Virus record (IMG/VR): IMGVR_UViG_3300021425_000151
Location: 1 to 27,216 of that record
DNA from: a virus
Direction: 5' to 3' (one strand)
Length of the DNA stretch: 27,216 nucleotides
Both the position numbers and the translations under genes were made by a program. Under the pieces are notes generated by a model. It ran no database searches. It had not been told where the DNA came from and saw nothing but the letters and a program-made list of their open reading frames with translations. Positions 6,307 through 27,216 of this stretch are shown piece by piece. Within the stretch, counting starts at the first letter, position 1. The number at the start of each line of letters is the position of its first letter.

Positions 6307-6722
6307 TTGATTATATTACCAATAGTTTGATGTCGCCAGTTAAGGTTACTGATGATCTGTTCTAAAGTATCTATAACAGTCTTATAGTACTGTATTTTCT
6401 CTTCAGACTTCTGTATTTCTGGATCTGAGTCGTAGTAGTAATCCATTTCGCCTTTGAGTATTTTTAGACCATCAAATGGATCAGGATCCCATCCTTTTTC
6501 TACGACGTCTTCTTGTGACATCTTGCCGTTATAATATAACCACTTTTCTTTCAACAAAACTTTTTGTTGAAACTCTGCTCGTTTAAGTTGTAGCTTAGTT
6601 GTTGAAAGAAGTTCCAAATACTTGGCATGCAGTTTCGGTGTTTCACGCGATGATTCATCAAGTTGCATCTTGATCTCACTATCACGAGACCACATTTCAT
6701 GTATTTGTTTCAAGTCAATCAT
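6279..6722 (-). CDS. uvsY: UvsY, recombination mediator
   Basis: Loads the UvsX recombinase on gp32-coated single-stranded DNA. The 147-residue product (T4: 137) aligns in its core with T4 UvsY: HAKYLELLSTTKLQLKRAE followed by QQKVLLKEKWLYYNGK, against T4's YSKWLNKHSSIKKEMLRIE and QKKVALKARLDYYSGR. It ends in a similar helix (IKWKQFESG). It is all-helical and highly charged, as expected. The start at 6722 is favoured because MIDLKQIHEMWSRDS resembles the N-termini I recall for marine T4-like UvsY proteins. The ATG has no Shine-Dalgarno sequence and sits at the predicted start of the early-type promoter, so the early transcript would be leaderless. The overlap with uvsW (28 bases) mirrors the T4 pairing of these genes. 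Confidence 0.9.
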   Translation of the reverse strand: MIDLKQIHEMWSRDSEIKMQLDESSRETPKLHAKYLELLSTTKLQLKRAEFQQKVLLKEKWLYYNGKMSQEDVVEKGWDPDPFDGLKILKGEMDYYYDSDPEIQKSEEKIQYYKTVIDTLEQIISNLNWRHQTIGNIIKWKQFESGS

Positions 6723-6761: not shown

Positions 6762-6769
6762 TATTTATA
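6762..6769 (-). promoter_or_regulatory. T4-type late promoter box (TATAAATA) upstream of uvsY
   Basis: An exact match to the T4 late -10 element on the minus strand, in the 53-base gap between the fibre block and uvsY. It would start transcription near 6756 and give uvsY a leader of about 35 bases. It is recognised by gp55, encoded in this window. Together with the early-type promoter 4 bases downstream it would give uvsY-uvsW both early and late expression. Confidence 0.7.
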
Positions 6770-17571: not shown

Positions 17572-17814
17572 TTAGAATGATCCCCCTCGAATCGTCAAAC
17601 TTGCAGGTAAAGATGTCACTTCAAATTTACCTGTTGACGCATTGTACTGGAGGATATGATCATCCTGTAAACCTGTCAGGTCTACATTTGTGAGATCGCC
17701 GAGAGTCTGTACAGAAGCACCAATCACCTTACGAATTGGAGTACCAATCGTAATCTTTTTGATTTGGGTTCTGTCGATGACCTCGACTTTTTTTACATAG
17801 GTAGGTGCCGTCAT
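17572..17814 (-). CDS. Small fibre-associated virion protein
   Basis: 80 residues in the fibre block, ending exactly where the 562-residue fibre gene begins and overlapping the previous gene by 4 bases. It contains DLTNVDLTGLQDDHILQYN followed by GKFEV, a short unit I have seen as a module within marine phage fibres, where it connects beta segments. Here it is a separate protein with a basic N-terminal half (KKVEVIDRTQIKKITIG). It is likely a minor fibre or collar component; the exact role is unknown. Confidence 0.75.
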   Translation of the reverse strand: MTAPTYVKKVEVIDRTQIKKITIGTPIRKVIGASVQTLGDLTNVDLTGLQDDHILQYNASTGKFEVTSLPASLTIRGGSF

Positions 17815-18152
17815 GAAGTTACCGATGGACTAACTCTAATTTTGCCTTCAAGAATCCTTTCGACGATAGTGTTACTTGCACTATCTTCGTAAGAAATCTC
17901 AACGTCATACACATAGTTACCGGTCTTTAAAGCGTCGGTCTGTGTATTTGTCAAAGAAAGAGTTATAGTACCTTCGGTAGGAACAATTGCTATGGAGAAA
18001 TCTGTAGCGGAGTCAGAGCTATAGTTGCGCTTCATCTGCGCAGCCGCTGAATAGTCTGTGAGATTTTTGGGGTTACCGCTCTTGTCAACTAGATCTAGTT
18101 GTATAGCGACGTCCGATCCTTTGTCGATCGTGAATTTTTCGTATTCTGCCAT
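17811..18152 (-). CDS. Small beta-sandwich virion protein, first gene of the fibre block
   Basis: A 113-residue protein with the layout of a compact beta sandwich: FTIDKGSDVAIQLDLVDKSG, NPKNLTDYSAAAQMKRNY, ITLSLTNTQTDALKTGNYVYDVEI (split here as ITLSLTNTQTD and ALKTGNYVYDVEI), and ILEGKIRVSPSV. This strand order resembles the N-terminal domain of phage baseplate-upper proteins (BppU type), which attach receptor-binding parts to the baseplate. That resemblance is from memory. An SD-like GGGAA stands directly before the ATG. The gene begins about 45 bases after the late-promoter box at 18198-18205 and would be the first one expressed from it. Confidence 0.8.
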   Translation of the reverse strand: MAEYEKFTIDKGSDVAIQLDLVDKSGNPKNLTDYSAAAQMKRNYSSDSATDFSIAIVPTEGTITLSLTNTQTDALKTGNYVYDVEISYEDSASNTIVERILEGKIRVSPSVTS

Positions 18153-18196: not shown

Positions 18197-18880
18197 TTAT
18201 TTATAATATTTCCAATCTGTAGGTTTGTTTTGGGCATGGGTAAAGTGAATAAATTTTATATCTGGATGCCAGTCTCCCATCCAAATATAATCATTTCCGG
18301 TTAATTGTTTATATCTTTCTGTCATATTAAATTGGAATTCAGTATAGGTCATATCTGTATCACCATATCCTGATTTCCATCTAGTAAACCAAGCTTTTGG
18401 TAATAATTTAAGTTTTAGCTTTTTATTAACTTGATCAAATACAAAATACTGCTCACCATTCACTGGGCCTTTTGTAATACCATTTTTAATATAATGCTGT
18501 TGCCAGTAATCTACATTTGACATAAACTCATCATAAATGTATTTACAATCTTTTGGATAATATTTAAAGAATCCACCATTAATCGTATATTCTGAATTAC
18601 TATCTCTCCACCATCCTGGCATGGCAAGAAATTCACCTGGTTCAATTGGATATTCAAATACTTTTTTATAATCATTTGTAAGCAAAACGTCAATATCCAT
18701 AACACAGATTGGTTCATCTATGTCAAGTGACATTCCATACATTTTATTCCATTGAAGTGTTACATCCTTGCGAATTGGTTCTCTTACCCAAATAAATTCG
18801 TATTCAGGTAATTTGGATTCCAAATATTCTTCATATTCAGGTCCATATCTATTGCCTATTCTAACCGCTACAACTTTCAT
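18197..18880 (-). CDS. Putative GT-A-type glycosyltransferase (second of the cassette)
   Basis: 227 residues from the ATG at 18880. It starts MKVVAVRIGNRYGPEYEEYL, a nucleotide-sugar-binding Rossmann-like N-terminus, followed by CVMDIDVLL with a D-x-D metal site (62-64), a TINGGFFKYY acceptor-side segment (about 99-108), and a C-terminal IHFTH..NKP (about 211-220) whose histidine is a common extra metal ligand. It belongs to the same broad family as the gene at 21440-22159. An upstream GTG at 18907 would add nine residues and lengthen the overlap with the radical SAM gene from 20 to 47 bases; I prefer the ATG because MKVV aligns with the start of the other glycosyltransferase. Sugar donor and acceptor are unknown. 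The last codons contain the late-promoter box. Confidence 0.8.
   Translation of the reverse strand: MKVVAVRIGNRYGPEYEEYLESKLPEYEFIWVREPIRKDVTLQWNKMYGMSLDIDEPICVMDIDVLLTNDYKKVFEYPIEPGEFLAMPGWWRDSNSEYTINGGFFKYYPKDCKYIYDEFMSNVDYWQQHYIKNGITKGPVNGEQYFVFDQVNKKLKLKLLPKAWFTRWKSGYGDTDMTYTEFQFNMTERYKQLTGNDYIWMGDWHPDIKFIHFTHAQNKPTDWKYYK
18198..18205 (-). promoter_or_regulatory. T4-type late promoter box (TATAAATA) for the fibre block
   Basis: An exact TATAAATA on the minus strand, overlapping the last codons and stop of the glycosyltransferase gene at 18197-18880. The predicted start is near 18192, giving the 113-residue gene a leader of about 40 bases. The gap 18153-18196 holds nothing else evident. 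Position at the boundary between the enzyme cassette and the fibre genes supports a real promoter rather than chance. Confidence 0.72.
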
Positions 18881-20090
18881 AATATTTTGTCCATTCAGGT
18901 AGAACACTCAAGAGATTTGTTCCTCTGAGCTTATCTCGTTTTTTTATTTTACTTAACATTGCCCACATATGAAATTCATTAAATTCAGAATTATCTAAGT
19001 AACGAGTTAATGCTTCCAACATTTCATGATTATTAGTTTTTGATGACCACAGTTTGTCATAATAATATTCTTTAATGTCAGGTGGTATACTATTAAGAGA
19101 AAATTCATTATTCATTATCAGACTTTGAGCAACATGATCTTTGACTGGTGTAGAATCAACTTCCAATAAGTGATGAATATTTAATGCCCCAACAGTAGAA
19201 ACATAAAACGTTTGAGCATTAGGTATTTCATTCATAATTTTAATATTTTTTTGTATGGTTGACCACTTTGATGGATATCTAATATATTCATTTATTTCTT
19301 TAGGACCTTCAATGGAAATATTCCACGTAACACGCTTAAATTTTTCAAATACGGATAAATCCTTTATAGTAATTGTACCATTGGTTATTATTCTAAGAGT
19401 GGTATTTTCTTCCATTTGAGATATTAGATCCCAATTTTGTTTTATCATAAGTGATTCACCCCCAGTAAGTTTTAGCTCACGAACTTTACTTATATCTGGA
19501 AGTTCTTTTATGATAGGTTTTACAATATGGCTTTGTCCATGGGATGGTTTACCATCTTGACGACTATTAATATATTTTTCACCAAGTTCTATTTCCTCTT
19601 TTCTATAAGTTGAAGATGTTTGGCCATCGCACATTGAGCACGCTAGATTACATACGTTACCACCAACTGCACTGTGTTCCATAGAGTGATAAAAGGAAGG
19701 TTGTTTATCATTATCAATAATGTCAATTAGATCGTCTTTTAGATGCTTGAAAAAACCGTTTTCTTCATCCCAGAATTTTTCAACATATTGTTCTCTAAAA
19801 GATTTACTACCATTACCCTCTGTTACTCTACATGCCTCGCAAACTTTATTTAACCAATCATCATCGCCACCATTTTTCATGGCATTTCTTAGTCTTTTCA
19901 TAAATGCTGAATTGTAAAATTCATCATGGGTATAATCTTTAGTTGTATAGAACAAATCTGATTCATCGTAAAACACACTATCGTTGATAACACAGCAAGG
20001 CTTCCACCACCCATAAGGTGAGGAGAAAATATTAGTAAATGGTTCTGGGCATATCCAGTGATACTTGTCTTTAGATGATTCCTGTGTCAT
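18861..20090 (-). CDS. Radical SAM protein with N-terminal cysteine-rich (twitch/SPASM-like) module
   Basis: 409 residues from the ATG at 20090. The core has the [4Fe-4S] motif C-x3-C-x2-C (C147, C151, C154 in CNLACSMC), GGE (210-212) for SAM binding, then RIITNGT and NISIEGP strands. Before the core lies a cysteine module: ICPEPFTN (C14), PCC (C32, C33) and CEAC (C84, C87). That layout resembles the SPASM/twitch region of peptide-modifying radical SAM enzymes, but placed ahead of the core. An auxiliary iron-sulfur cluster is plausible. An open frame extends to 20177 but would overlap the PP-loop gene by 107 bases, so the 20090 start (20-base overlap) is preferred; 20117 is the alternative. 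The substrate is unknown. It sits between the PP-loop ATPase and a glycosyltransferase in the cassette. Confidence 0.85.
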   Translation of the reverse strand: MTQESSKDKYHWICPEPFTNIFSSPYGWWKPCCVINDSVFYDESDLFYTTKDYTHDEFYNSAFMKRLRNAMKNGGDDDWLNKVCEACRVTEGNGSKSFREQYVEKFWDEENGFFKHLKDDLIDIIDNDKQPSFYHSMEHSAVGGNVCNLACSMCDGQTSSTYRKEEIELGEKYINSRQDGKPSHGQSHIVKPIIKELPDISKVRELKLTGGESLMIKQNWDLISQMEENTTLRIITNGTITIKDLSVFEKFKRVTWNISIEGPKEINEYIRYPSKWSTIQKNIKIMNEIPNAQTFYVSTVGALNIHHLLEVDSTPVKDHVAQSLIMNNEFSLNSIPPDIKEYYYDKLWSSKTNNHEMLEALTRYLDNSEFNEFHMWAMLSKIKKRDKLRGTNLLSVLPEWTKYYESCSG

Positions 20091-20829
20091 AACACCCAAA
20101 CGCCCATAGTTTTTCATGGCACCAGAAACATTTTCTACATGGTTCTGTATAATATTTTGAATCTGCATTATCTCCAATACATGACATAGTCATAGGAAAT
20201 AACTCATCCATCAAATCAAGTTTTTCATACATTCCAGCCACCCATCTCTTATCAACATTTACAAAAGGTTTATGGTGTATATTTTTTCCACTGGGGCTTA
20301 TAACTATAGGATCATACCATTGATTTCTTCTAGATTCTGCAACGTGTTCAAATCCTAATTCTCTTTGAACTTCTATTGGTGGATTTCCTGTGATACCGTG
20401 AGTTGACATAGTTATATTATATTTTTTTCGCATTATACTTTTATGCTCTTTCTGTGCAATACTTTTGGCATGTCCATATACTGTAGGAAATATAGATTTA
20501 TCCTCAGCCGCTTCAATTTCCTCTCTTGCTTGTATTATATGTCTTGTTTCTCGGCTATTAAATTTATATAATTCATGAATCATGTTCACATTAGGAAATT
20601 GTTTTTTCATCCAAATAACAATGTCCGTGGCATATTCTCCAACAAAAGGATCTTTAGTTACATCGGTTCCTGTATGACATACTATTCTTTTTTCAGGTAG
20701 ATATAAACAAATTAGATAAAGCAAAAGAGACGAATCCGTGCCACCCGAGAGTGCAACATATATATTGTCATGCATACTATGATCAAAACCAAAAAAATCT
20801 ACTGTTTGTCCTACTGCTTCTAATTTCAT
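20071..20829 (-). CDS. PP-loop ATPase with QueC-like zinc site
   Basis: 252 residues. The N-terminus has VALSGGTDSS, the SGGxDS pyrophosphate-binding loop (28-33) of N-type ATP pyrophosphatases, which adenylate a substrate. CHTGTD (51-56) is the second PP-loop strand region. Near the C-terminus are C217 (MSCIGD) and C231-x2-C234-x2-C237 (CRKCFWC), followed by LWAFG. This four-cysteine layout parallels the zinc tetrad of QueC (7-cyano-7-deazaguanine synthase), where a Cys precedes C-x2-C-x2-C. The middle of the protein (about 90-200) is not recognisably QueC. The start overlaps the methyltransferase-like gene by 4 bases. No queD, queE-sized or folE-like gene is in the window, so a deazaguanine pathway is not established. 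The ATPase class is firm and the substrate unknown. Confidence 0.83.
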   Translation of the reverse strand: MKLEAVGQTVDFFGFDHSMHDNIYVALSGGTDSSLLLYLICLYLPEKRIVCHTGTDVTKDPFVGEYATDIVIWMKKQFPNVNMIHELYKFNSRETRHIIQAREEIEAAEDKSIFPTVYGHAKSIAQKEHKSIMRKKYNITMSTHGITGNPPIEVQRELGFEHVAESRRNQWYDPIVISPSGKNIHHKPFVNVDKRWVAGMYEKLDLMDELFPMTMSCIGDNADSKYYTEPCRKCFWCHEKLWAFGCYDTGII

Positions 20830-21452
20830 CTTCCTATCACCATAAATCTTTTCATACCATTATCTAGAACTTTTGTTCCACTATAAATTATATCAACAAA
20901 CTCTGCTTGATCAGCTAATTCATCTGGTCCAGATACACAGTTAATATGATCATCGTATTTGTCCTCATCAGTTGACTGAAGAACGTATAATGGTATTTCA
21001 TCTAGTTGCTTATTGATTCTATTTTTCATCATACTAAACGGATGCATGTGTTCACATGATGTATTTATTACAAGCCCTATCACGCCTCTTTCTACATGCT
21101 GCTGATCAAAATTTTCTATATTAAGATCTTTTACCATTGCATCAAAATATTCTACCTGATACCTATTAAATGTTTTTGATATATCAGCGACAAAAGGATC
21201 TATTTCATAGTTACAAATATAGGTACTATACTCTCTTAAATAGTGTGCTAAATAATGACAAAACCATCCTCCTATAACGGCTGTATTTTGATATGTATCG
21301 CCAATGTTTTTTAATTCCTCAAAAATCCATTGCTTACCTTGAAGCTGAGAATACAAAAAGGAGTGGTTTATTCTTTCAATAATCCATGGATGCTTTTTAA
21401 TGCATATATTATACGTGTTAAACCAACACGCTAAAGCTTCTATTGTTGCCAT
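20826..21452 (-). CDS. Methyltransferase-like protein (class I SAM fold suspected)
   Basis: 208 residues. A motif I-like strand and glycine turn is seen at TAVIGGWFCHYLA (57-69), followed by an acidic residue at the end of the second strand (YEIDP, 82-86) and a possible motif IV strand (GLVINTSCEHM, 126-136) where a catalytic D/N-P-P-Y would stand in N6/N4 DNA methyltransferases. Instead there is NTSCEHM, so it is not a typical DNA-amino methyltransferase. A Cys in this place could be catalytic or a metal ligand; that is speculation. It overlaps the upstream glycosyltransferase by 13 bases and the PP-loop gene by 4, so it is an integral part of the cassette. It might bind SAM without methylating. 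Confidence 0.72.
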   Translation of the reverse strand: MATIEALACWFNTYNICIKKHPWIIERINHSFLYSQLQGKQWIFEELKNIGDTYQNTAVIGGWFCHYLAHYLREYSTYICNYEIDPFVADISKTFNRYQVEYFDAMVKDLNIENFDQQHVERGVIGLVINTSCEHMHPFSMMKNRINKQLDEIPLYVLQSTDEDKYDDHINCVSGPDELADQAEFVDIIYSGTKVLDNGMKRFMVIGR

Positions 21453-22159
21453 AATTTTTCAATTGCTTTATCATCTATATCTGAGCTATTATTAAATAAA
21501 CAAATCATATGATCAGATCTAATCTTATGCTCATCAATATCATCTGGAAAAACATTACCTTTGTACCATGAATATGTAGTGCCTTTTTCAAAGATATTAA
21601 ACATATCAGAGGTATCAGTGGTAATATCATACCATTTTCTATGCAAGTAATTATCTATAGATTTATATGTAAAGAATATAAACTGTGCATTTTTTTCTAT
21701 ATCATCATAAATGGGTTTTAATTGTCCTCTATTCCATCTAATAACAGAAGAATTTATTATTGGAGATATACCTTTGCCATAATTTTTTTTACAAATATCT
21801 ATATTATTCCACCAACCTTTCACTATCCACGGCTTATTCATTTCAAGTGTAAATAGTGGATCTATAGAGTTATGGATTAAAATATCTAAATCAAAAAATA
21901 AAAACTCATCTCCACTGATTTGTGGAAATAAGTCTTCATTAAACATATATAATTTTCGATAAGCCCAGAAATGATTTTTTTCTGGAATATAATGTTTATC
22001 CCAGAATGATGGTAAGTGAATATCATATTGATTTTGAAGATTGTCAGTCAGGCAATAGAAATTAAAGTCATATGAACAATTGTTTTTAATTTGTTCATAT
22101 AATTTATCAACATAAGAATTGTATTTGTCACCCCACTTGACACATAATATATTTTTCAT
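21440..22159 (-). CDS. Putative GT-A-type glycosyltransferase (first of the cassette)
   Basis: 239 residues. It starts MKNILCVKWGDKYNSYVDKLY, closely parallel in layout to the glycosyltransferase at 18197-18880. FYCLTD (35-39 region) is followed by HFWAYRKLYMF (63-73) and FFDLDIL, with D-x-D at 90-92 for metal and nucleotide-sugar binding, then PWIVKGWWN (110-118) and IINSSVIRW (134-142). This is the order of GT8-like transferases. The gene begins one base after the stop of the 158-residue structural-region gene and opens the A+T-rich cassette. Donor sugar and acceptor are unknown; candidates are a fibre protein, host surface glycan or modified base. Confidence 0.82.
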   Translation of the reverse strand: MKNILCVKWGDKYNSYVDKLYEQIKNNCSYDFNFYCLTDNLQNQYDIHLPSFWDKHYIPEKNHFWAYRKLYMFNEDLFPQISGDEFLFFDLDILIHNSIDPLFTLEMNKPWIVKGWWNNIDICKKNYGKGISPIINSSVIRWNRGQLKPIYDDIEKNAQFIFFTYKSIDNYLHRKWYDITTDTSDMFNIFEKGTTYSWYKGNVFPDDIDEHKIRSDHMICLFNNSSDIDDKAIEKLWQQ

Positions 22160-22160
22160 T

Positions 22161-22637
22161 TTAAAATTTTAAATATGCTTTTAGTACATCAGCAATAGTT
22201 TTTGCTTTTCTTAATTCACTCTTTAGCTCTCTATTATTAGACTTAAAGACATGCTCTTGTTCAAACAATTTTAACTTTAAATTAAATACATCTTTTTCAC
22301 CATCACCTGTATTAATATATTTTATAAGCAGGTCATGATCTGCCTGTCTATTACCAAAGATATCATCCCATTCATTATTAGCAATTGCAATTTCTTTCAA
22401 TTCATTCTCATATGTCTGCCGCATATTACGAATTCTATTATATGTATTTTCATGAATTTGCTCAATGTCGATATGATGTTTAAGAAGAGCTCTCCACCAC
22501 CTATTGTTTTCATCGACATTAAAAGTGTATGTTCTGAATGCTTCATCTTCAGTATTCGACTGCCATTCGGTACAAACAATCGATTTTTCATTGTCTGTAA
22601 AATATGCATTCACTAATGTATGATCGACCGGAATCAT
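22161..22637 (-). CDS. Conserved-type hypothetical protein of the structural region
   Basis: 158 residues, acidic N-terminal half (MIPVDHTLVNAYFTDNEK...) and helical, basic C-terminal half (FNLKLKLFEQEHVFKSNNRE, then LRKAKTIADVLKAYL). From memory it resembles a small protein found next to fibre or structural genes in marine T4-like phages, but I know no function. It overlaps the 649-residue structural gene by one base and ends one base before the enzyme cassette. Possible roles are assembly chaperone or connector for the upstream structural protein. Confidence 0.78.
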   Translation of the reverse strand: MIPVDHTLVNAYFTDNEKSIVCTEWQSNTEDEAFRTYTFNVDENNRWWRALLKHHIDIEQIHENTYNRIRNMRQTYENELKEIAIANNEWDDIFGNRQADHDLLIKYINTGDGEKDVFNLKLKLFEQEHVFKSNNRELKSELRKAKTIADVLKAYLKF

Positions 22638-24586
22638 TAGTATCTCTCCAGCTTAAGGTTATATGTATCTTGATTCACAATCGTTCCATTTGGAAATTCT
22701 TGTGCTCGATAATCGTTAATGTTAACAAATCTTGTTGTATATGCACCAGATACACTAGTCATTTGTTGATTATATATGCTACTGACTATTGTTCCATAAG
22801 TACCGTCAAAGTTATATCTAAGTCTATAGCCGGCAGCATTCTTTGTTGTGTAGTTAATCAGTGACCCGAAGAATGTATCAAATTCTGCATACGTCATCGC
22901 CCTTAGCCCGACAGCTGTACCGCTTCCATTGTAATCAACAATCAGTGGTGTTCTATATCCTGTACCTTGTGTTTGCTTTTGCGAATCAACCTTATGCAGA
23001 TAATAGTTTGTTGTATTAAAATGATCTTGATAGGTTGTTGTACCACTTGTTTGAGTATACGAACCTGCTGCAATTGTCCAAGAATTTGAGCTACCTAATG
23101 ACCATGTCGATAATGGTGCACGTGTAGTACCAATTGGAGTTTGGATATAGAAACCAGTATTATTCTGTGCAGTAACAGTCGTACCTTCGACAAAGGCAAA
23201 TCCTCCAGAATAGGGCTGTGAACCTGCTCTAAAATCACCATTAATGTGTTTAAGTTTTCCTCCTAGTACAAGTCTAAGTGCAGCTCCGTTACTCGGCTTG
23301 GCATACGTACCACTAGATATAATATTATCGCTCACCAATTCATTTATTCGTGTCTGCAAGGTTGAATTTGAAGAATTTCTATTAAAGCTAAAGTACCGAC
23401 TATTCCCGTTAGTGCCTTCTAATCTTACAAATGCATTCTGATCATTACTTGCTCCGTCATCTCCACTAATCCAAATATAAAGATGTGTTGCTCCATCTGG
23501 AGTAATTTTAACGACGTCTGTGCCAGTAGAGTGATTAGGAGAACCGGTCGCGTATAAAAATGGATCTGGGGTATAATCAATTAGATTGGTATCGTCTGCA
23601 GTAGGATAGTCTACATCCCATTTATTATGTCCATACGAAAGATAAGCACTATTAAAAGTTGCTCTTCGAGTAGCATCTGCAGCGTTATAATAAACCTCAT
23701 AGGCCACATCATCACTGAATACATATGTCCTATGGCCATTAGCGTTTATACCCGCCCTAAACCAATTTGTGGCGCCATTGGGTCTCGTGTTAGCAGTGTT
23801 AGTAGTAGAATATCTTGCATCACCGAAATGAAATACGCCAGCACCTGATAATGAAACGCTATTTACTGTTACTGAAACACCTGTACCACCAATGCTTGTC
23901 AATACAGTTTGTGAACCTGTGCCGCTTACTGCAGAGAAGTTTGTTGTGGTTGTGGTTGTGGTAGTGCCACCAATAAGAGATGCTTGATATGAACCAGCGT
24001 CTGCTACAGTGTCGACAAAAACTGGAGTAGCACTTACGGCGGTTGCTCCAGTTTCAGATGAATTCGTTGTGATAAAATAACTACCTGCGGCAGCAGGATC
24101 TGAAGGACTTGCACCTTCCTGATAATCATACCAATCTTCAATATATGTATCTAAAACATCTTGATAAGACATTTCAACAAAGCCACCGTTTTCAAATTTG
24201 ACAGGCTTAATCGCCTGTGCTTTATACCAAGTTTCATTTGCCTGAACAGGAACTACTCCAGAAAAAAGCGTTTGATTTACTCTATCGTAAGAAAATCCTG
24301 TAATAAGTTCCGGTTCTGCTGTCGTCGGTTCTTGAGGATATTCAGCTGCGCCGTCATCGACTGCATCATTATCACCAGTCGACTGTGAGTATGCACCTGA
24401 ACGATAGCGGGTGTCTGTCATGTTCGGTGATATATTACCGCCAGATGTTACGACTGTTAATTCAGTAGCAGCATCTGAATCATAAAGATGCGCCATACGA
24501 CCTAGCATATTATTATATTCAGCAGTTTGGAATTGCCTTACAATTTCATCGTTATTTTGTGCGATGAACGGTCTAAAATTGCCCAT
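22637..24586 (-). CDS. Large virion structural protein with poly-threonine linker
   Basis: 649 residues, rich in Thr, Ser, Asn, Gly and Tyr, predicted mostly beta. The N-terminal part (1-150) has a defined segment starting MGNFRPFIAQNNDE with a long acidic, Pro-rich stretch (about 70-95). An eight-threonine run (208-215, encoded by an ACAACC-type tandem at about 23943-23966) separates it from a beta-rich body that includes FHFGDARYSTTN and IWISGDDGAS segments. The C-terminal 100 residues carry YAEFDTFFGSLI and end in NLKLERY. I recognise it only as a structural protein, possibly baseplate or fibre. The stop and start overlap neighbours by one base each, so it is coupled to both. Confidence 0.8.
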   Translation of the reverse strand: MGNFRPFIAQNNDEIVRQFQTAEYNNMLGRMAHLYDSDAATELTVVTSGGNISPNMTDTRYRSGAYSQSTGDNDAVDDGAAEYPQEPTTAEPELITGFSYDRVNQTLFSGVVPVQANETWYKAQAIKPVKFENGGFVEMSYQDVLDTYIEDWYDYQEGASPSDPAAAGSYFITTNSSETGATAVSATPVFVDTVADAGSYQASLIGGTTTTTTTTNFSAVSGTGSQTVLTSIGGTGVSVTVNSVSLSGAGVFHFGDARYSTTNTANTRPNGATNWFRAGINANGHRTYVFSDDVAYEVYYNAADATRRATFNSAYLSYGHNKWDVDYPTADDTNLIDYTPDPFLYATGSPNHSTGTDVVKITPDGATHLYIWISGDDGASNDQNAFVRLEGTNGNSRYFSFNRNSSNSTLQTRINELVSDNIISSGTYAKPSNGAALRLVLGGKLKHINGDFRAGSQPYSGGFAFVEGTTVTAQNNTGFYIQTPIGTTRAPLSTWSLGSSNSWTIAAGSYTQTSGTTTYQDHFNTTNYYLHKVDSQKQTQGTGYRTPLIVDYNGSGTAVGLRAMTYAEFDTFFGSLINYTTKNAAGYRLRYNFDGTYGTIVSSIYNQQMTSVSGAYTTRFVNINDYRAQEFPNGTIVNQDTYNLKLERY

Positions 24587-26102: not shown

Positions 26103-26307
26103 CTAATTTCTCTAAGATCAACTTCATCATGCCTTTGAGCTCAGAGACATCATCCTTTAGCTGATCAACATCCTCTTCTCTTCGTTTTTGAGCCTGCTTT
26201 CGAGCTCTTAAAGCCTGAACTTTTTCTTCACTGTTAGTATAGAGAACAGCACCTGTATCTTTGTCACGTACAATGTCTGTTCGTCCTTCAACTCTTTGAT
26301 AATCCAT
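26092..26307 (-). CDS. Small coiled-coil protein of the structural region
   Basis: 71 residues. The first 28 (MDYQRVEGRTDIVRDKDTGAV followed by LYTNSEE; quoted in two parts) carry a conserved-looking RDxxTGAxLxT motif, and the rest is a charged heptad helix (VDQLKDDVSELKGMMKLILEKL). I recall similar small proteins in the structural region of many marine T4-like phages, function unknown. The overlap with the upstream structural gene is one base and with paralogue B is 11 bases. A trimerisation or assembly helper is possible. Confidence 0.8.
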   Translation of the reverse strand: MDYQRVEGRTDIVRDKDTGAVLYTNSEEKVQALRARKQAQKRREEDVDQLKDDVSELKGMMKLILEKLDGA

Positions 26308-27216
26308 TATGCACTCAATGCGATCGCTCTTAAATCCTTTAATACTGGTACTTTAGCATCATTTGTTGATGTCATTACAATTTTAATCTGGAACTGTGTA
26401 AATGCGGGGAAGTTGCCGCCAGGACCACCTACTAAATAATTATACTGTCTGAAAACATTCGGATTTTCATCTGAAGGAATCGACTGTTCTTTCGCTACAA
26501 GCTTAAATGCTTTCTTTCGAATATCTTCGCCTGTTGCATCTGATGTACGATAATACACTTTAAAGTCTGCTTCTTTTGGTCTATGAGCAGTCAAGCAGAG
26601 TTTCAGACCGACAGCAGATGTTTGCAATGTGATAGGTTTTGTAATATGTTTTGAACCTTGAGTACCGTGTGTTGCTGTTGTTTCATCCACAAAATTAAGA
26701 GGAACATTAAATCCTGTTGTAACAGAACTTGCCTGATTATCAATCACATTATTTACAAGAGTGATCGAACATCTTTGCAAATCAATCATTGGAGAAACAA
26801 AATCATTGTCTGTATAGAAAGATGCCTGCATCTCGAGAGACTTAGCACCTACAGCAATCTCATTGTCAGCAATTGAATCTGCACATACGAGATAAGGTTC
26901 ATTTGCATACATCGTTTTGCCGGGTGTAAATGGTGCAAAGACAGTTTCTTTATCGTAAAGAGCTGTATTTGAACCAGCGAGCGATTTACCCTTTGTGCCT
27001 AGGAATCCGAAGGAAAGACCAGTTTGAGAAGGCTTGAGAGTTGCAAGATTCGAATACATTACCGAATATGGAATATTCTTTGTCGATTGTACTAGGCTAC
27101 CGCCTGCAACTTCATTCGAGTCTGCATTCGAGTTCATTGCAAATCTAAATCCTGACAGATCAACAGCAGTAATAGTATGATCTGCATTCAAAGAGTCTGC
27201 CGTAAATCCACCGACT
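26307..27216 (-). CDS. C-terminal part of a large virion structural protein (cut by window edge)
   Basis: An open frame runs from the window edge; at least 302 residues are present. The codon at 27191 is TTG in a continuing frame (VGGFTADSLNADH), so no real start is visible and the gene extends beyond 27216. The visible part is beta-rich and ends with FYTDNDFVSPMIDLQRCSI, then a LCLTAHRPKEADFKVYYRTS strand pair, and FTQFQIKIVMTSTNDAKVP..KDLRAIALSA (quoted in parts). That C-terminal pattern resembles large structural proteins placed between baseplate-wedge and fibre genes in marine T4-like phages. A baseplate-associated role is inferred from location. Confidence 0.78.
   Translation of the reverse strand, partial: VGGFTADSLNADHTITAVDLSGFRFAMNSNADSNEVAGGSLVQSTKNIPYSVMYSNLATLKPSQTGLSFGFLGTKGKSLAGSNTALYDKETVFAPFTPGKTMYANEPYLVCADSIADNEIAVGAKSLEMQASFYTDNDFVSPMIDLQRCSITLVNNVIDNQASSVTTGFNVPLNFVDETTATHGTQGSKHITKPITLQTSAVGLKLCLTAHRPKEADFKVYYRTSDATGEDIRKKAFKLVAKEQSIPSDENPNVFRQYNYLVGGPGGNFPAFTQFQIKIVMTSTNDAKVPVLKDLRAIALSA

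Follow-up and report, generated by a model that had tools for sequence, protein, structure and literature searches.

In pelagimyophages and cyanomyophages, a hypervariable host recognition cluster (HRC) lies after VrlC in the structural region of the genome. It is bounded by VrlC and the neck protein gp14 and holds tail fibres, radical S-adenosylmethionine (SAM) cassettes and many glycosyltransferases (GTs), mostly of family GT8, which the published account reads as modifiers of host lipopolysaccharide or O-chain (PMC7029224). Here we analyse five enzyme genes on the minus strand at positions 18197-22159 of the IMG/VR virus record IMGVR_UViG_3300021425_000151, whose whole 27,216-base stretch we call the window. 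In order of transcription they encode a GT-like protein (GT_B), a methyltransferase-like protein (MT), a PP-loop ATPase, a radical SAM protein and a second GT-like protein (GT_A), and they are bordered by a small protein, fib158, on one side and a tail fibre assembly-type protein, asm113, on the other. The site of this cassette appears to be the known hypervariable HRC of marine T4-like phages; what is new is the description of a frame with an exchangeable payload at this known kind of site, and of an apparently phage-associated lineage of QueC-fold proteins within it. We judge it an even chance that these genes represent a single allele of a modular cassette that builds and attaches glycans and acts on distal tail proteins.

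Among described relatives of the PP-loop ATPase, Cap9 joins a base to a protein N-terminus (PMC13279940, PMC11996544), which provides a precedent for protein modification by a QueC-type enzyme (PMC13279940), and canonical QueC carries the motifs YxQxHxxE, VPxRN and YPDC, with residues needed for preQ0 formation (PMC13329287).

A constant frame with an exchangeable middle

All five open reading frames (ORFs) of the tight unit named in the original prediction were confirmed, and they overlap successively by 13 (21440-21452), 4 (20826-20829), 20 (20071-20090) and 20 (18861-18880) bases, figures that assume ATG starts at 20090 for radical SAM and at 18880 for GT_A. When IMG/VR was scanned with the MT family, 80 loci were obtained, 54 of them distinct. 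A same-strand GT lies just upstream of MT in 38 of these and a further GT downstream in 43, and fib158 homologs are found within 42; PP-loop is present in only 12. A scan seeded with fib158, using a subset of the family alignment, gave 26 distinct loci, with a GT or MT at most five genes away in 21 and some module enzyme in 24. Across dozens of contigs, the arrangement fib158-GT-MT-(payload)-GT-asm113 keeps its ends and the enzymes in the middle are swapped.

The exchange is best seen between MT and GT_A. In L013 this interval holds PP-loop alone, with no radical SAM gene; in L001 (contig 3300021356_000043, also read as L073), the nearest relative of the window, it holds PP-loop and an O-methyltransferase in place of radical SAM; and in L076, L091 and L094 it holds radical SAM, PP-loop and a further gene. 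The closest relatives keep GT-MT-PP-loop-GT without a radical SAM gene, and the nearest kin of the window's radical SAM protein (30-36% identity) sit in frames without PP-loop. Other middles consist of an Asp/Asn beta-hydroxylase relative with a 430-aa protein, radical SAM with a nitroreductase, or a carbamoyltransferase. In most frames without PP-loop, the Asp/Asn-hydroxylase-like gene is followed by a conserved protein of about 430-530 aa (L081, 5435-6718, and homologs), for which no convincing Pfam family was found.

Several observations tie the enzymes to one another. PP-loop, radical SAM, MT and at least two GTs occur together in 20 of 41 distinct PP-loop loci. PP-loop and radical SAM genes are adjacent in 29/46, compared with a mean of 19.7 (standard deviation 3.0) in within-island shuffles, only 2 in 1000 of which reach 29. 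There are also fusion proteins, PP-loop with radical SAM in two kinds and GT with MT in L014, L015 and L033, which support joint action. The single pathway that was originally proposed for these genes therefore survives as a real module linked to tail fibres, in which the four families recur together and adjacency exceeds that of the shuffles, but not as a fixed set of five steps, since L001 and L013 lack radical SAM, the exact set varies, and PP-loop is confined to the minority of MT loci given above.

Minimal cassettes share one strand with the fibre genes. Larger islands also carry GT8, DegT aminotransferase and carbamoyltransferase genes, indicative of sugar-type chemistry. Some large islands (L048, L049, L050, L060 and similar) contain several radical SAM genes, nitroreductases and SGNH-like proteins, in a recurrent order that ends DegT-radical SAM-carbamoyltransferase-MT-GT. 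Beside island radical SAM genes there is a cysteine-bearing protein of 110-130 aa (family c3), possibly a stand-alone SPASM-like domain.

The site in reference phages

Other genes of the window encode gp46/47-type nucleases, gp55, a DNA helicase and a ferredoxin; their best relatives belong to cyanophages and pelagiphages, which identifies the window as part of a marine T4-like phage. The gene at its edge (26307-27215) is similar to the final 280 positions of phrog_358, whose length is like that of VrlC; none of the window's genes was identified as a neck gene. The corresponding site follows VrlC in Mosig, P-HM1 and S-T4. In the reference cyanophages P-HM1, S-T4, ACG-2014f and S-CAM7, VrlC is followed by an ORF of about 70 aa, asm113 and then other genes, with no enzyme genes between VrlC and asm113, and HTVC008M has no cassette at this site. 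An island of about 18 kb occupies the site in the SAR11 phage Mosig (EXVC030M). In phage C48C1 the site carries fib158 together with a GT-like gene bearing DxD and one more gene, which we read as a dioxygenase on the basis of motifs. The surroundings of asm113 were read in 13 reference Kyanoviridae: fib158 is present in Mosig and C48C1, both with enzyme genes at the site, and was undetected in the other 11, where this divergent family may have been missed rather than be absent. Reference Kyanoviridae have asm113 both with and without the cassette, and natural phage pairs with and without the frame exist. Direct searches of phage isolates with MT and GT_A matched Mosig alone, and those with GT_B and PP-loop gave no match. 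In Prochlorococcus phage P-SSM2 (173637-177714; L155), genes annotated as tryptophan halogenase, NAD synthetase and 2-oxoglutarate oxygenase stand beside two asm113-type genes.

The PP-loop protein retains the QueC fold and lacks the QueC substrate motifs

The family identity of the PP-loop protein is solid, based on its fold and cysteine cluster. It scores 23.0 bits against PF06508 (Pfam gathering score 22), and matches at E<=0.01 were obtained for 36 of the 40 family members. The AlphaFold2 (AF2) model (predicted local distance difference test, pLDDT, 92.7) has as its structural matches (VIA) Cap9 (Z 13.7), QueC (13.2) and MesJ/TilS (13.0), and as rows within Z 1 of each other are tied, MesJ/TilS is tied with Cap9 and QueC. 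Alignments to Cap9/QueC have root-mean-square deviations (rmsd) of 3.0-4.0 over 169-184 residues (for Cap9, 3.0 over 169). Structure prediction agrees with the enzyme types named in the original prediction, giving a QueC/Cap9-type fold for PP-loop and a class I fold for MT (below). The SGGxDS phosphate-binding loop is found in 39 of 40 members (SGGTDS in the window, SAG in the remaining member), and CxxCxxC preceded by a further cysteine is common to all 40, with C(x)13CxxCxxC spacing in 33.

The canonical QueC zinc motif, C(x)8CxxCxxC, is found in none of the 40 members. Each of YxQxHxxE, VPxRN and YPDC is likewise absent from all 40, with E. coli QueC as a control positive for all three, and the window protein scores 18.1 bits against the QueC equivalog model TIGR00364 (cut-off 150.3). 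Since these substrate motifs are absent, the protein appears to keep the ATP-activating scaffold, and its substrate, judged from the motifs, very likely differs from deazaguanine. The YxDC substrate motif of Cap9 is also missing (0/40) and no CD-NTase was seen among the scanned neighbours; nor are the features of QatC present, the spacing being 13 in most members and the window protein having 252 aa. WbpG-type N-acetyl-sugar amidotransferases were considered and, on a comparison of motifs, seem less likely, their CxxC(x)6CxC (PMC13329287) being unlike the C-terminal CxxCxxC seen here.

Matches to the PP-loop group occurred only in phage-like islands, which suggests a phage-associated lineage of the QueC fold. 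In a scan of genome contigs with two short patterns, by which absence elsewhere is unproven, PP-loop was found in only three contigs (L069, L070 and L071), all flanked by cassette or island genes; L070 resembles L032 and L071 is an island fragment. We know of no prior characterisation of this phage QueC relative. L069 (NHBR02000105.1), binned as a Muricauda metagenome-assembled genome, has the order fib158-GT-MT-radical SAM-PP-loop-GT and the appearance of a phage contig that was placed in a bacterial bin.

The radical SAM protein carries an N-terminal twitch domain

The family identity of the radical SAM protein is also solid: it scores 215.8 bits against NF033640 (N_Twi_rSAM; curated cut-off 170), over 41-433. 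The protein has a CNLACSMC motif, and C14, C32, C84 and C87 are invariant. When the family profile was compared with solved structures, it matched BtrN alone, in two entries (E 1.6e-4 and 8.1e-4), the N-terminal region of the phage protein being aligned with the C-terminal twitch region of BtrN. The two are thus similar by profile in the auxiliary-cluster twitch region, the only part matched, which precedes the radical SAM core in the phage protein but lies at the C-terminal end of BtrN. BtrN is a twitch radical SAM dehydrogenase that oxidises an aminocyclitol, and this hints at sugar-like chemistry for the phage protein, no more. The window protein scores 24.0 bits against the QueE model TIGR03963 (cut-off 260.1). 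A scan of IMG/VR with the single radical SAM protein found nothing.

The methyltransferase and the glycosyltransferases of the frame

The best structural match (VIA) of the MT model (AF2, pLDDT 89.6) is the N-methyltransferase NodS (3ofk; Z 15.7, rmsd 3.0, 176 aligned), with other methyltransferases within Z 1-1.5 of it and 998 of 1000 chains at Z>=8, and MT is probably a class I SAM methyltransferase, an assignment made by fold only. Its conserved motifs are G.W(F/Y), NTSCEHM and H.NCV. Matches in sequence to spermidine synthase and CntL mean that aminopropyl or aminobutyryl transfer is also possible.

By iterated profile GT_A and GT_B form one family, in which DxD is invariant. GT_B weakly matches the glycosyltransferase profile phrog_1962 (E 1e-4). 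Both show weak GT8/glycogenin similarity: the family profile matches the GT8 structure 5gvv weakly (E 0.013), and PF01501 (GT8) gives a weak match to 1 of 25 family members (E 0.0017) and none to GT_B or GT_A of the window. A profile comparison (A4-A5) gave a probability of 8% for a link between the frame GTs and the GT8 family found in the larger islands, and the two were not joined. GT_A is 74-85% identical to its homologs in L001, L013, L076, L091 and L094.

Base composition and gene history

The cassette was originally described as richer in A+T than its neighbours, and the contrast with the flanks is significant both in mean gene GC (30.9% vs 40.0%; Mann-Whitney p ~5e-5) and in GC at third codon positions (GC3; 22.0% vs 33.0%; p ~9e-5). 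The low-GC stretch, however, extends beyond the five enzymes over fib158 (30.4%), and amino-acid composition accounts for much of the A+T richness. GC3 is 24-30% in most adjacent late virion genes, and 38-40% in the two small genes that flank the cassette. As GC3 of the adjacent virion genes is already low, much of the contrast lies at codon positions 1 and 2, where fibre and enzyme compositions differ, and the A+T argument is weaker than it looks. In L001, the two GT genes have GC3 of 31% and 34%, above most of their virion neighbours.

Identity between the window and L001 is 54-77% for the cassette proteins, 44% for fib158 and 73% for asm113; the cassette is about as conserved as its virion neighbours, and its genes look inherited along with them. 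Recent joint import of the cassette, argued from its low GC, was therefore rejected as unproven. In identity correlations across six genomes, which with 15 non-independent genome pairs are indicative only, GT_A goes with asm113 (r 0.65) and PP-loop with GT_B (0.56) and MT (0.54), and the value for GT_A and PP-loop is -0.11, suggesting that the block recombines internally.

Features and neighbours of the cassette

The coordinates are collected in Table 1. On one flank, asm113, which matches phrog_3304 (E 1e-20) and phrog_1084 (E 9e-27), is followed by fibre proteins of 562 and 1759 aa; on the other, fib158 is followed by the 649-aa fibre-like gene and two DS-rich genes. The placement of the enzymes between DS-rich virion gene blocks, as first described, is confirmed by the frequency of DS dipeptides, which is 5.8, 6.1 and 3.75 per 100 aa in g223, g278 and g1759 versus 0-0.8 in the cassette. 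The octamer TATAAATA occurs three times in the window (2.7 expected by chance) and a promoter scan of the window gave counts at chance level; by its position just before asm113, one copy is suggestive of a late promoter, from which asm113 may have its own late start. A second intergenic copy lies at 6762-6769 (minus strand), 40 bases upstream of the gene starting at 6722. Rfam and tRNA scans were both empty.

Table 1. Features of the cassette and its borders in the window (aa, amino acids).
Feature	Coordinates	Strand	Remarks
649-aa fibre-like protein, family fibc17	22637..24586	-	directly before fib158 at this site and in most relatives
fib158, 158 aa, constant left border of cassette	22161..22637	-	GC 30.4%
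GT_B, glycosyltransferase-like, 239 aa, DxD (D90, D92), frame gene	21440..22159	-	
MT, class I SAM methyltransferase fold, 208 aa, NTSCEHM signature, frame gene	20826..21452	-	
PP-loop ATPase, QueC/Cap9-type fold, 252 aa, payload gene	20071..20829	-	SGGTDS, C217-x13-C231xxC234xxC237
Radical SAM, N-terminal twitch (auxiliary Fe-S) domain, 409 aa from ATG 20090, payload gene	18861..20090	-	
GT_A, glycosyltransferase-like, 227 aa from ATG 18880, DxD, asm113-side frame gene	18197..18880	-	
TATAAATA, T4-late-promoter-like octamer	18198..18205	-	overlaps GT_A stop, 46 bases before asm113 start
asm113, LtfC-like / L-shaped tail fibre assembly family, constant right border	17811..18152	-	

What the cassette may do

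If the cassette acts on distal tail proteins, the two GT-A-type transferases and the class I methyltransferase would form the constant frame and build a methylated glycan. The PP-loop ATPase would adenylate a carboxylate (or amide) of its substrate and couple it to an amine in the manner of QueC and Cap9, and the twitch radical SAM protein would oxidise or rearrange a sugar or side group, these two steps being exchangeable tailoring. A distal tail protein would receive the product; the best candidates for acceptor or adaptor are fib158 and the fibre that neighbours asm113, and the decoration might vary the recognition surface of the phage or shield it. The fixed neighbours, fib158 and asm113, and the same-strand packing with late fibre genes are the reasons for preferring a virion target to the host surface.

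A number of points weigh against this reading. The glycan product, the amide-type bond made by PP-loop and the virion-protein target are all steps that we infer, and GT_A and GT_B are assigned as glycosyltransferases from DxD and a weak similarity of profiles. No single history is common to the frame genes, GT_A going with asm113 and PP-loop with GT_B and MT. In the larger islands L011, L024 and L027, enzymes and fibre genes occupy opposite strands, and co-expression of the two is therefore not a general rule. The comparison loci were seeded with cassette genes, which are consequently over-represented in them, and the frequencies given above are not population frequencies.

Finally, in the published account the GTs of this region, mostly GT8, are assigned to host O-chain modification (PMC7029224), and this leads to the main rival, which we consider possible, if unlikely: the cassette would remodel the surface glycan (O-chain or capsule) of the infected host, for superinfection exclusion or progeny release, and its location among fibre genes would reflect a recombination hotspot for host-interaction genes. 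The GT8 and sugar-tailoring enzymes of the larger islands fit this, but no gene for sugar-nucleotide synthesis, a flippase or a polymerase is visible in the minimal cassettes (the window and L013), late expression would come at a late moment for blocking superinfection, and the constant linkage to fib158 and asm113 and the single-strand packing with late fibre genes better fit a role in the virion.

Within the reading of a cassette that decorates tail proteins, a more specific proposal, tentative and in our view rather doubtful, is that PP-loop acts as a ligase of QueC fold, restricted to phages, and forms an amide bond between a small carboxylate and either the glycan of a tail fibre or the N-terminus of a protein linked to fibres, for instance fib158; that the carboxylate would be made or tailored by radical SAM and the glycan enzymes is put forward just as tentatively. 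If the ligase proposal were true, whole chemical decorations of the recognition surface would be exchanged by swapping one or two payload genes within a fixed GT-MT-GT frame.

It is improbable that radical SAM and PP-loop instead modify a phage-encoded peptide or the tail of fib158, in a conjugation like that of ribosomally synthesised and post-translationally modified peptides or at the N-terminus as by Cap9, with the GTs then glycosylating the product. A PP-loop fold nominally nearest that of Cap9, with its base-to-N-terminus chemistry (PMC11996544, PMC13279940), the PP-loop-radical SAM fusions and the constancy of fib158 as a partner would all agree with it; however, the base-recognition motif of Cap9/QueC is absent from all 40 members, neither a CD-NTase nor a short gene for a precursor is seen in the cassette, and fib158 of the window begins MIPV, unlike the MG motif of Cap9 and QatC substrates. 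A nucleotide, DNA or tRNA modification related to 7-deazaguanine synthesis, which the assignment of PP-loop to PF06508 by fold and profile and the resemblance of the radical SAM and QueC-like genes to a QueE-QueC pair might suggest, is very improbable and was rejected on the PP-loop motifs, none of the three QueC motifs being present in any member, with QueE and QueC model scores far below their cut-offs, neither FolE nor QueD nor a transglycosylase among those proteins of the window that were scanned, and a location among fibre genes.

A constant frame with an exchangeable middle makes it possible to treat what was a list of auxiliary genes as a single testable system, which has named borders and a likely partner, fib158, and bears on the role of sugar, radical SAM and nitroreductase genes in the hypervariable islands of abundant ocean phages.

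Comparison with known systems

The cassette resembles the HRC in the kind of phage, in place and in its combination of GTs with radical SAM cassettes, so that the original statement that no described system has this set holds only in part: the site appears to be a published one, but the fib158-GT-MT-(payload)-GT-asm113 frame, the QueC-fold protein, the fusions and the tie to fib158 are not described in the portion of the HRC account available to us (PMC7029224).

Phage virion glycosylation has a precedent in the mycobacteriophages Che8, Corndog and Myrna, for which phage-encoded glycosyltransferases are demonstrated to modify the phages' own capsid and tail proteins (Freeman 2023, via PMC12363180 and PMC11652166), whereas for the window cassette such modification is a prediction. 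These are other phages, with other hosts, than the marine T4-like ones. To our knowledge, glycosylation in Che8, Corndog and Myrna has no PP-loop or radical SAM component.

With QueC, Cap9 and QatC (PF06508; PMC13329287, PMC13279940), the phage PP-loop proteins share SGGxDS, the fold, the four-cysteine cluster and a conserved lysine before an SC motif. They differ in the zinc motif, C(x)13CxxCxxC in place of the C(x)8 or C(x)19 of QueC/QatC-type enzymes, and lack the C(x)19CGxCxxRR motif, the N- and C-terminal extensions and the length of about 400 aa of QatC (qatABCD). Their neighbours are GT, MT and radical SAM genes rather than the CD-NTase or qat partners of Cap9 and QatC, and the group fits no cluster with motifs described in PMC13329287, where archaeal clusters 7, 8 and 10 are not detailed. 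This fold was recently shown to modify proteins in anti-phage defence; the phage PP-loop group extends it by a further lineage, one that stands on the side of the phage and has altered substrate-site motifs.

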